DNA of 47,049 nucleotides from a virus. Position 1 is the stretch's first letter, and every line of letters starts with the position of its first letter. The position numbers and the translations under genes are program-made. Under the pieces are notes generated by a model, which was not told where the DNA came from, searched no databases, and worked only from the letters and a program-made list of their open reading frames with translations. This document shows, piece after piece, positions 3,071 through 37,294 of this stretch. Where the stretch lies: the IMG/VR virus record IMGVR_UViG_3300009545_000009, positions 1 through 47,049 of that record; one strand, 5' to 3'.

Positions 3071-3411
3071 GGCTGCCTCTTCTGAAGTTCGGTCTGGAGT
3101 GCCTGCAGGGCCCTGACGGCCGTGGCGAGCGAATCCTCACCCGCGGTCGGGTTGCCACCGTGGATCTGGTCGGCAAGATCGATGCCGTTTTTGAGTTCCA
3201 CTGCCTTGTCGTGAAACTGCTGGGCGTCGCCCTTACTAATCTTCCCGGCAACAGCGAGCGTCTGGACGCTCTGCACGATGCCGTCCTCGAGGTTATAGGC
3301 TGCGAGGATTCGCTGGTTCCATGTCGTCGGTGACGGGACTCCCAGCGTCGCGCAGGCCGCCAGTAGCAGCAGGAGCAGGCTCAGGGAGTACTTCAGGTGT
3401 CGGGGGTGCAT
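3067..3411 (-). CDS. Phage lipoprotein, start nested in the upstream membrane protein gene
   Basis: A 114-aa protein starting at MHPRHLKYS. It has a Leu-rich signal sequence and lipobox LAAC (Cys about residue 20), so it should be an outer-membrane or periplasmic lipoprotein. The first 119 nt lie inside the 3' end of the membrane protein gene 3293-3709 in another frame. That architecture recalls the i-spanin/o-spanin (Rz/Rz1) arrangement, although the mature part is longer than a usual Rz1 and lacks Pro-richness. I chose this start because the longer ORF upstream is only read-through of the overlapping frame. Confidence 0.7.
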   Translation of the reverse strand: MHPRHLKYSLSLLLLLLAACATLGVPSPTTWNQRILAAYNLEDGIVQSVQTLAVAGKISKGDAQQFHDKAVELKNGIDLADQIHGGNPTAGEDSLATAVRALQALQTELQKRQP

Positions 3412-34824: not shown

Positions 34825-35021
34825 GCTTGCGCATCCACTTCGGCGCGCCGCTTCGCCTCATCCTCGCTAGGCATGCTGTTGGCGAGCTGGTGAAACCAAG
34901 CGCCGCCCGGAACCATCTTCCAAAGCTCCCAGAGCCCATTCGGATCGACGCAGGTTGTGAAGCGCTTGCACTTCGTGTGCGAGCCGCTGGCGTCGGGATG
35001 GATTTTGGTCCATTCAAGCAC
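34821..35021 (-). CDS. Small hypothetical protein
   Basis: A 66-aa protein from the GTG at 35021, which overlaps the upstream replication gene by 8 nt. It contains Trp-rich, charged stretches (VLEWTKIHPDASGS, LWELWKMVPGGAWF). I chose this start because the longer upstream frame is a shadow of the replication gene. The function is unknown. Confidence 0.6.
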   Translation of the reverse strand: MLEWTKIHPDASGSHTKCKRFTTCVDPNGLWELWKMVPGGAWFHQLANSMPSEDEAKRRAEVDAQA

Positions 35022-35565
35022 TGGCCATCTCCGCCTCCAGCATGCGCATGCCCTCGATCCAGGCTGCGTCCTGATCGGCGAGCGGCACATCCTCACGGGA
35101 ACCGCTATTGCGCATGAGATCCGCCCAGCGATGCTTGAATGCGACGAGAACCTGTGTCTGCCGGGGGTCGATGTACTTTCGATCGACGCCTTTGCGAAGG
35201 ACGTAGCCGAGCAGGCGGAAGTTCGCCGCGATGTCCCATCCATCAAACTGATCATCGGGACCCGCGAGCGTGCGCGAAGTGGGGAGCCTCGATCGCTGAT
35301 CCGGAACATCGTCGGCGTGCCCCACGGTGCGACAGAGCTTCATGAACTCAGGCAGCGTCGGCGGGTGAGGCTTACCGCTGTACACGAGCCGGCGCATGCC
35401 TTGCGCGAGCTGGTAGTCATTCAGCATCGAGAGCCCGGCGACCCATTCCTGCGGGGGCTCCTCGCCGAATTTGCTAATCAGGGATGCGCCGAAGCAGCCC
35501 AGTAGCCGCTCCCAGACCTGATTCGCTCGCTGGGCCGAATTGTTCGCTGACCACTCTGTTGCCAT
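35014..35565 (-). CDS. Replication protein, helicase-loader-like
   Basis: A 183-aa protein. ANQVWERLLGCFGASLISKFGEEPPQEW, then LAQGMRRLVYSGKPHPPTLPEFMKLC, resembles the lambda P-type replication protein family, which recruits the host helicase. It follows the origin-binding replication gene and overlaps its 3' end by 92 nt in another frame. This start gives the typical N-terminus. Confidence 0.72.
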   Translation of the reverse strand: MATEWSANNSAQRANQVWERLLGCFGASLISKFGEEPPQEWVAGLSMLNDYQLAQGMRRLVYSGKPHPPTLPEFMKLCRTVGHADDVPDQRSRLPTSRTLAGPDDQFDGWDIAANFRLLGYVLRKGVDRKYIDPRQTQVLVAFKHRWADLMRNSGSREDVPLADQDAAWIEGMRMLEAEMASA

Positions 35566-36313
35566 TGCCGTTCCTGAGTTTCTCGCGCGCACGCTCCACT
35601 GCCGACGCCTGGGGCTTCGGTGGAGCTCGGGCGAAGTTGAGGCCGCGTTCGATGTGGGTGACATCGCGCAGGAAAAGCTCGATGTCGTCGTAGACAGTTC
35701 GCTGGTCGTTCTCGCCCATGTGGTGCGGCGAGAGCTTGTAGCCGGAGATCGCGGAGCAGACCGTTGCCTCGTCGAACGAAGCCAGCGCGGCTGCGATCAC
35801 CTTCCGGCGTTTTGCGTCGAGCTTCGCTTTCGGGTGCCCGAACTCTCGGCGCCAGTGTTCAAAAATCCTTCCAGCCGGTTCGTCGTCGAGTTTCAACTCG
35901 ACAGAGATCTTCTCTCCTCTGTCTCTACTCTTCTCTCCTCTACTCTCCTCTCCTCTGGCATAGCATCCTGCTAGCAACGTGCTAGCAGCTTGCACCGAGG
36001 CGGTTTCGTCGCTGGTGACTTCTTGAATTTCAAGGAAGTTGTACGAGACCAGATGCAGGAGAGCGGCACGGAACGCACTTTCAGTGCATTCGAGGCTGGC
36101 AACCTTTTTCAGCAGGTCCCAGCGGTATGGGATTTGGTTGTTGTAGCGCGCTGCTAGCAACATGCTAGCAACCTGCACCAGACGACTCGTGTCGGTTCCG
36201 AGGACCCAGGACTCGCTTGTGAGCAGCTCGCGATACAGCTTCACCCACGGGGGCGAACGGTCCTTGTAGTGCTGGAGCTCGGCCCAGCCGCAAAGTTTGA
36301 TAATCGCGGCCAT
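35474..36313 (-). CDS. Replication initiation protein (origin-binding, O-like)
   Basis: A 279-aa protein. The N-terminus IIKLCGWAELQHYKDRSPPWVKLYRELLTS is the signature of phage replisome organiser proteins with a winged-helix origin-binding domain. The middle contains the repeated segments VQVASMLLA and VQAASTLLA, which the candidate iteron DNA encodes. A charged Arg/Glu/Lys-rich linker (ARGEESRGEKSRDRGEK) follows. The start at 36313 overlaps the upstream stop as TAATG. Confidence 0.82.
   Translation of the reverse strand: MAAIIKLCGWAELQHYKDRSPPWVKLYRELLTSESWVLGTDTSRLVQVASMLLAARYNNQIPYRWDLLKKVASLECTESAFRAALLHLVSYNFLEIQEVTSDETASVQAASTLLAGCYARGEESRGEKSRDRGEKISVELKLDDEPAGRIFEHWRREFGHPKAKLDAKRRKVIAAALASFDEATVCSAISGYKLSPHHMGENDQRTVYDDIELFLRDVTHIERGLNFARAPPKPQASAVERAREKLRNGNGNRVVSEQFGPASESGLGAATGLLRRIPD
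35908..36170. other. Candidate replication origin inside the replication gene
   Basis: The palindrome TGCTAGCA occurs four times in two pairs: 35969/35980 and 36152/36163, each pair 11 bp apart (one helical turn) and the pairs 183 bp apart. The flanking bases are also conserved between pairs (TGCACC follows each). A 49-nt nearly pure pyrimidine tract (35908-35956) lies beside the first pair. The layout, iterons inside the initiator gene next to a biased tract, resembles the lambda ori in gene O. Confidence 0.6.
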
Positions 36314-36594
36314 TAGCTGGCCCGGGCTTCGGTCCGTTTCCGCCGGCTTGAGCGTATTGCACGGCGCCCAAGCTTCGGAGGCGGCTGATTGAAGGCGAGG
36401 AGCACGTCCGCCGTGAGAAGTTTCCCGCGCTGCGCCGCCTGATCGATCATCTTCGGCCACCAGTGCACCGGCAGGCGCCGGCGCACGAGCGCCCGATAGA
36501 CGGTGTCGGGCTTGGCTCCGATATCAGTTGCGAGGGCGGTCGAGTCGGCCCAGATGCCGAAGACGGCTGGGCTTATGTCCTGATTCGCTTGCAT
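36313..36594 (-). CDS. Cro-like / HTH early regulator
   Basis: A 93-aa protein with an N-terminal helix-turn-helix (ADSTALATDIGAKPDTVYRALVRR), then WWPKMIDQAAQRGKLLTADVLLAF, a pattern of phage Cro-like and repressor proteins. It is the first leftward gene and starts just after the operator 36609-36625. The predicted transcription start lies at its ATG. It probably governs the lysis-lysogeny choice. Confidence 0.78.
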   Translation of the reverse strand: MQANQDISPAVFGIWADSTALATDIGAKPDTVYRALVRRRLPVHWWPKMIDQAAQRGKLLTADVLLAFNQPPPKLGRRAIRSSRRKRTEARAS

Positions 36595-36619
36595 TCAGCC
36601 GTTATACACCGGATAAAAT
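36589..36619 (+). promoter_or_regulatory. Candidate promoter of the repressor gene
   Basis: TTGCAT (36589-36594), then GATAAA at 36612 (17-bp spacer) or TAAAAT at 36614 (19-bp spacer). The -10 lies in the operator, so the repressor could turn off its own gene. The choice of -10 is uncertain. Confidence 0.4.
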
Positions 36620-36629
36620 ATCCGGTAAA
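36601..36629 (-). promoter_or_regulatory. Leftward early promoter
   Basis: On the - strand: TTTACC (36629-36624), 17-bp spacer, TATAAC (36606-36601). The spacer holds the 17-bp operator, so repressor binding would block it. The predicted start is at about 36594, which is the A of the Cro-like ATG, so the transcript is probably leaderless. Confidence 0.65.
36609..36625. promoter_or_regulatory. Immunity operator (perfect palindrome)
   Basis: CCGGATAAAATATCCGG: 7-bp arms CCGGATA/TATCCGG around an AAA centre. A near-identical copy and a weaker one lie at 37250-37288. It sits between the divergent repressor and Cro-like genes, inside the leftward promoter. Confidence 0.8.
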
Positions 36630-36674
36630 GGGCGGAATAAGCTTCCAGTGACAGCAGTATTGCTTCAATTGACG

Positions 36675-36992
36675 ATGCCCGGCATGAGCAATGTCGGCCG
36701 GCGCATCGGCACGCCCACCGAATACCGAGAAGCGATCATCGAGCGCACCCGCGGGGCGCGCGAGAAGCTGAAGCTCAATCAGCAGGAAATGGCGGAGAAG
36801 CTCTCTATAGAGTGCCAGCGCCCGATTTCCGCCGACACATACAGACAGTGGGAAAAGGAAACGACGTTGCCCCTGGACGTCATAATGCCCCTCTGCAATC
36901 TGGCGCACATCCATCCTTGGGAATTCCTCGCGCCAGTCCCTTTCTCGCAGGCCTCTTCAGCCCCGGCACGCTCCAGAAAAAGCGCAGCATGA
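36675..36992 (+). CDS. CI-like repressor (XRE-type HTH)
   Basis: A 105-aa protein, a single HTH domain (TRGAREKLKLNQQEMAEKLSI, then ISADTYRQWEKETTLPLDVIMPL), with no protease-type C-terminal domain, so it is smaller than classical CI and would not be cleaved by RecA self-proteolysis. It faces away from the Cro-like gene across the operator. It is the likely immunity repressor. An alternative Met is at 36684. Confidence 0.82.
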   Translation: MPGMSNVGRRIGTPTEYREAIIERTRGAREKLKLNQQEMAEKLSIECQRPISADTYRQWEKETTLPLDVIMPLCNLAHIHPWEFLAPVPFSQASSAPARSRKSAA

Positions 36993-37249: not shown

Positions 37250-37288
37250 CCGGATAAATAATCCTTGCGCTCCGGATAAATTATCCGG
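37250..37288. promoter_or_regulatory. Two operators of the rightward promoter
   Basis: A perfect copy CCGGATAAATTATCCGG lies at 37272-37288 and an imperfect one starting CCGGATAAATAATCC at 37250, with centres 22 bp (two helical turns) apart, which suits cooperative binding by the repressor. The arms are identical to those of the operator at 36609. Confidence 0.75.
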
Positions 37289-37294
37289 CATACT
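37265..37294 (+). promoter_or_regulatory. Rightward early promoter
   Basis: TTGCGC (37265-37270), 18-bp spacer that holds the operator, CATACT (37289-37294). Transcription would start near 37301. A hairpin GACTCC/GGAGTC (37305-37310 and 37317-37322) lies at the 5' end of the leader, which may act in RNA stability or antitermination. It drives the long rightward operon. Confidence 0.65.

Follow-up and report, generated by a model that had tools for sequence, protein, structure and literature searches.

An origin of DNA replication that appears to lie inside the initiator gene of a phage and to represent a widespread, so far undescribed origin type

Introduction

Where does a phage begin to copy its DNA? 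To our knowledge, the origins of only a few tailed phages have been identified, and the question is raised here by a viral sequence of 47,049 bp (the window, which denotes the whole stretch analysed) in which a short palindrome, TGCTAGCA, recurs within a single gene. Copying of this phage DNA appears to start inside the gene for the phage's own initiator. The locus is best explained as an iteron origin within a gene of a temperate-type phage, a reading that we regard as very probable; such an origin would work in the manner of lambda ori or SPP1 oriL. Constraint on the sequence, its spacing grid, its confinement to this gene, its shift with the N-terminal clade and the replication genes alongside are observed; binding of the initiator, looping, melting and origin firing are inferred, as there are no binding or replication data. 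If the reading is correct, a short word is enough to locate the probable origin, directly from sequence, throughout a very large class of phages, those of uncultured hosts included.

Four palindromes within one gene of the window

The preliminary description of this DNA reported four TGCTAGCA palindromes arranged as two pairs, the members of a pair being spaced by 11 bp and the pairs themselves by 183 bp. Sites and geometry are both confirmed, and each pair is treated here as a cluster:

36163..36170, minus strand: iteron at grid position 107 in cluster 1; written in codons 48-51, which belong to helix 41-56 of the modelled winged helix
36152..36159, minus strand: iteron at grid position 118 in cluster 1; written in codons 52-54
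35980..35987, minus strand: iteron of cluster 2; codons 109-112, start of the disordered linker
35969..35976, minus strand: iteron of cluster 2; codons 113-115, within the disordered linker
35958..35965, minus strand: cluster 2, degenerate third copy of the repeat, TGCTATGC, by direct reading

All four exact sites lie inside a minus-strand initiator open reading frame (ATG at 36313, 279 aa), and a word count finds no copy elsewhere in the window. Shuffled versions of the window contain 0.27 copies on average and never reach four; synonymous permutation of the codons of the initiator gene leaves no copy in 19,239 of 20,000 runs and never yields four. The degenerate third repeat keeps the 11-bp register with the neighbouring cluster 2 iteron, and relatives often have degenerate third and fourth repeats at matching register. 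At 35987-35994 there is a weaker iteron-like word, TGCAAGCT.

The initiator and its gene neighbourhood

The genes on either side of the array belong to an early region with a lambdoid layout:

35474..36313, minus strand: initiator gene, 279 aa; PHROG 26426 and 16167, replication (initiation) proteins, and AlphaFold models
35014..35577, minus strand: gene for a P-like helicase loader, which overlaps the initiator gene at the latter's 3' end; PHROG 109, E 5.8e-9
36313..36594, minus strand: small gene upstream, where cro/cII would be expected; without a family match
36528..36992, plus strand: divergent repressor-like helix-turn-helix gene; PHROG 3 and 8, E about 5e-6

The initiator consists of an N-terminal winged helix (residues ~1-100), a disordered linker (~110-138) and a C-terminal helical module. 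Its N-terminal part, the QHYKDRxPPWIKL domain, matches PHROG 26426 (E 2.2e-8 for the window protein; 70 of 70 members of the aligned set match), and its C-terminal part matches PHROG 16167. AlphaFold predicts the winged-helix domain with confidence (mean pLDDT 91) and places codons 48-54, which encode cluster 1, inside the helix of residues 41-56. Cluster 2 and the tract considered below correspond to residues ~109-138, nearly all of which have pLDDT below 50; protein structure therefore hardly explains the conservation of cluster 2 and the tract. In 15 of the 20 relatives tested, the initiator gene is followed by one for a helicase loader, a DnaB-type helicase or a primase-helicase.

Fold comparison adds little to this assignment. 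The N-terminal model finds only weak winged-helix matches, including plasmid initiator and ORC/Cdc6 winged helices (Foldseek E 0.5-1.1; VIA Z 5.0-6.1, level with unrelated winged helices). For the N-terminal winged helices of plasmid initiators (PDB 4pql, 4pt7, 4pta, 5kbj) these Z scores extend over 75-82 residues; the likeness is weak, tied with unrelated winged helices and without a sequence match. A search with the full-length model gave no meaningful match, probably due to the disordered linker. Pfam and NCBIfam hold no family for the window protein, a PDB sequence search found no relative of it, and megablast against named phages returned nothing useful; some relatives match PHROG 'O-like' families.

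No sharp switch in GC skew is seen near 36 kb of the window, a point against the origin reading. Several CCGGATAAA..TATCCGG-like inverted repeats, seen by direct reading at ~36608-36626 and 37250-37291, flank the divergent repressor-like gene and are probable operators.

The repeat as a property of a large class

Homologues were gathered from viral contigs and bacterial genomes with a 35-aa stretch of protein upstream of the repeats, a query used because circularity was to be avoided. The 97 non-redundant homologue genes carry 178 exact TGCTAGCA copies, against a mean of 9.0 and a maximum of 17 under synonymous-codon permutation; the comparison with synonymous sites that had been proposed as a check is thus strongly positive. 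At least one copy is found in 83 of the 97 genes and at least two in 59. Most of the 14 genes that lack the exact word retain GCTAGC or a near variant, and one homologue (L216) has neither. Within the gene the density is 2.55 per kb versus 0.012 per kb in 489 kb of flanks, a difference of about 200-fold, and the enrichment is present in both low- and high-GC loci. Searches of whole virus and phage records, cultured and uncultured, place most or all copies at the initiator locus; phage PBR31, which has the other iteron class described below, contains none in its whole record. The window thus exemplifies a large class.

The spacing of the palindromes is equally constrained. Scanning the viral collection for TGCTAGCANNNTGCTAGCA (N3 spacing) finds at least 119 contigs, versus 8 for a control in which the same palindromes have two extra bases between them (N5). 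Among the listed contigs of that first set, 66 have the match in genes whose products show the QHY/F..PPW signature in its strict form; of the remaining matches listed, many fall in genes for what are plainly variants of this protein. A chance origin of the array is excluded by the shuffles, the codon permutation and this spacing control.

A fixed grid and the choice of codons

Positions in the homologue set, counted in nucleotides from the residue before QHY, fall on a grid. The two clusters are fixed, one in the winged-helix coding region and one in the disordered linker: sites of cluster 1 occur at 86, 97, 107 and 118 nt and those of cluster 2 at about 236-292 nt. The window sites stand at 107, 118, 290 and 301 nt on this scale (104, 115, 287 and 298 when numbered from the Q codon). 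With at most one mismatch allowed, the step from one site to the next is 11 bp in 109 cases and 10 bp in 28. Iodobacter phage PhiPLPE, Cylindrospermopsis phage Cr-LKS3 and Vibrio phage phiV208 have in common a 32-bp cluster 1 spacing and a cluster 2 site.

A repeat inside a gene could be the by-product of a repeat in the protein, here an ASxxLA structural motif of the winged helix and linker that is conserved for its own sake. Cluster 1 does encode part of a predicted helix, and the repeated peptides to which the preliminary description drew attention, VQVASMLLA and VQAASTLLA, are real. Codon choice argues otherwise, because the codons at iteron residues are far more uniform than those at other conserved residues. 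In the iteron columns leucine is CTA in 74% of cases and alanine GCT in 78%, whereas for leucine at other conserved columns outside the sites the top codon reaches just 25-40%; the dipeptide LA is written CTAGCA in 108 of 196 iteron-window cases versus 3 of 129 in the rest of those genes. Permutation retains the protein yet removes the sites, cluster 2 sits at a disordered linker, and a sister clade encodes DIxxIS at this place with another palindrome. Conservation at the protein level alone is hardly credible as an explanation of the array. Under the origin reading, these genes would clearly illustrate how an overlapping origin can shape a protein-coding sequence.

A purine tract beside cluster 2

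Next to cluster 2 lies a stretch of biased composition:

35908..35956, minus strand: coding-strand polypurine tract (46/49), by direct reading and codon bias
35919..35925, minus strand: GAGACAG tract word, at a position conserved in relatives

This tract had been described as 49 nt of pyrimidine. Its position and length hold; it is not strictly pyrimidine, since 46 of the 49 plus-strand nucleotides are pyrimidines and three interrupt the run. The accompanying claim that the bias is of purine/pyrimidine rather than AT type is borne out by the relatives, in which the purine fraction is 0.83-0.92 over 30 nt of the coding strand downstream of cluster 2 and AT is merely 0.04 to 0.10 above background. 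An AT-rich unwinding element next to the iterons is absent. A mild AT rise (0.10-0.14) is located 70-100 bp upstream of the tract, and GC3 is 0.06-0.17 lower where cluster 2 and the tract lie.

Codon choice is again skewed. In the window, all four arginine codons of the linker are AGA, versus 1 of 21 in the rest of the gene. Across relatives, arginine in the tract is AGR in 124 of 163 cases versus 320 of 1283 elsewhere, glutamate is GAG in 374 of 437 versus 613 of 1224, and threonine is ACA in 68% versus 22%. The word AGAGACAG occurs in the tract region of 71 of the 97 homologue genes, and GAGACAG is restricted to a narrow range of positions. Simple-repeat slippage may contribute to the uniformity of the tract, which is a possible unwinding or loading element. 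Whether a purine tract is able to replace an AT-rich unwinding element is a testable question that this locus raises.

In three relatives (L219, L226 and L230) the AGAGACAG tract, ~285 nt after QHY, is on the opposite strand, and the linker is Ser/Val-rich rather than Glu/Thr-rich.

Two specificity classes with C-terminal modules in common

The sister clade mentioned above has QHF in place of QHY (QHFKDRRPPWIKLYRDILDD), and its iteron is different. TGCTAGCA occurs as one copy in its 46 genes, whereas GATATCA occurs 111 times, against 18 in permuted sequences, and is found in all 46. These sites are mostly at 237, 248 and 259, in the same 11-bp register, and in most cases are followed by the same tract.

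The C-terminal modules do not respect this division. A C-terminal relative in the QHF set exists for 42 QHY genes, the window included; in these pairs the QHF member has GATATCA and lacks TGCTAGCA, and just one QHY member has GATATCA. The shared module is 40% identical over 116 aa between the window protein and that of PBR31, and 73% identical between L189 and L304. In a further case (L001) the C-terminal module is 75% identical to that of the window, the N-terminus is different and there are no iterons. Iteron type tracks the N-terminal clade despite homologous C-terminal modules, which means that the iterons and the N-terminal domain are inherited together. This supports a reading of the iterons by that domain and is not proof of it, because domain and iterons are physically linked and binding data are lacking. 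The two natural specificity classes offer a route to how a winged helix reads an iteron.

Several features of these genes were noted in passing. At L001:500-1400 an HNH-endonuclease-like N-terminal part is apparently fused to the window-like C-terminal module. In the QHF class (L248-L327), CTGTCTC occurs in about 20 copies in 46 genes, ~195-225 nt after QHF and upstream of GATATCA; as the reverse complement of GAGACAG, it flanks the GATATCA iterons with the same word in inverted orientation. A KHQNPHIKE initiator class (L337, L405, L335, and L002 at 3234-3290) has possible 11-bp linker repeats of GTGCAAGCAC or GGTGCTAGCACC, which in so small a sample are suggestive only. MW202462.1 and MW202640.1 (L246 and L247) contain the open reading frame and GATATCA iterons, and the initiator gene is unannotated or lies under spurious calls.

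A possible mechanism of initiation

The arrangement suggests how such an origin might operate. The N-terminal winged helix of the initiator would bind the TGCTAGCA palindromes, with each turn of the DNA helix offering one site, in two clusters ~180 bp apart, of which cluster 1 lies within the binding domain's own codons and cluster 2 within those of the linker. Occupancy of both clusters may wrap or loop the DNA into an O-some-like complex, which in turn could destabilize the adjoining purine tract with its GAGACAG word, together with the AT-prone codons near cluster 2. Recruitment of the P-like helicase loader (35577-35014) is envisaged to fall to the flexible linker and the C-terminal module, and the loader would place host DnaB for theta replication.

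In-frame palindromic sites confined to the initiator gene could also serve as a roadblock, by which the protein, bound to TGCTAGCA in its own gene, would block transcription while the true origin lies elsewhere. The sites are 140-345 bp into the gene, not at its promoter, and the two clusters, the tract in fixed register and the adjacent helicase-loading genes fit the anatomy of an origin; an autoregulatory operator is accordingly judged improbable as the sole function. A dual role in replication and repression is possible, because binding for replication does not exclude repression.

Comparison with known intragenic origins

Origins within initiator genes are already known from lambda, SPP1 and P1. 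In lambda and Stx phages, iterons lie inside initiator gene O with a biased tract alongside and the loader gene downstream (PMC7466680). The parallel with lambda ori in O drawn in the preliminary description is upheld for position, for neighbouring genes and for the adjoining biased tract: the window likewise has tandem repeats inside the initiator gene and a P-like loader (PHROG 109) next door. Unlike lambda ori, it has a second cluster in winged-helix codons, and its tract carries AGAGACAG and is rich in purines instead of AT. The lambda iteron itself differs from an 8-bp TGCTAGCA palindrome every 11 bp, although no alignment was made.

In Bacillus phage SPP1, oriL consists of direct repeats within initiator gene 38 (gp38), and the phage encodes a dedicated loader, gp39, and a DnaB-type helicase, gp40; a second origin, oriR, lies at a distance from oriL, and the unwinding element is AT-rich (PMC6316719). 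The window resembles oriL in its repeats inside the initiator gene and its dedicated loader, and differs from SPP1 in these last two features. The lytic oriL of P1 is inside initiator gene repL, as backed by synonymous substitutions; there the element is an A/T-rich region, and iterons are not mentioned (PMC9948254).

New here are the different iteron, the cluster in the codons of the DNA-binding domain, the purine tract and the reach across phage lineages; relative to the preliminary description, the very large phage class, the two fixed clusters and the tract word AGAGACAG are additions. Literature searched for TGCTAGCA, AGAGACAGAGACAGAG or phage iteron origins does not describe this origin type, within a coverage that is incomplete and includes few subscription papers, and the published accounts of PBR31 and phiPLPE make no mention of an origin or iterons.

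Distribution across hosts

Sites are found in named isolates of Rhizobium, Labrenzia, Variovorax, Zavarzinella, Limnoglobus and Desulfopila, and in phages of Iodobacter, Vibrio and Cylindrospermopsis. These genera we take to represent Pseudomonadota, Planctomycetota, Desulfobacterota and Cyanobacteriota; records of metagenome-assembled genomes, whose binning is uncertain, suggest that further phyla are involved.

This breadth bears on a further possibility, namely that the sites serve some other phage function, such as packaging initiation, recombination or the binding of a host DNA-binding protein, and merely happen to lie within a replication gene. Cis sites inside genes are known in some phages. 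A class that spans several host phyla is unlike a host-factor site, however, and the sites accompany one N-terminal type, change with the clade and vanish when the N-terminus is replaced despite a retained C-terminal module; such a function is considered very unlikely.

Returning to the origin reading, its extended form is that of a portable module comprising the QHYKDRxPPWIKL domain, TGCTAGCA or GATATCA iterons encoded within that domain and the linker, and a directional AGAGACAG tract, present in phages of at least four bacterial phyla, in which the tract would replace the AT-rich melting or loading element and which would be swapped whole against C-terminal helicase-recruiting modules. This extension, inferred from comparison of genes alone, is favoured only slightly over its negation.

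Among the records with this type of gene, PQ492659.1 (Limnohabitans phage DC33; L245) is classed in the Inoviridae, yet it is 39 kb long and has a tailed-phage-type initiator gene; its taxonomy line looks wrong.
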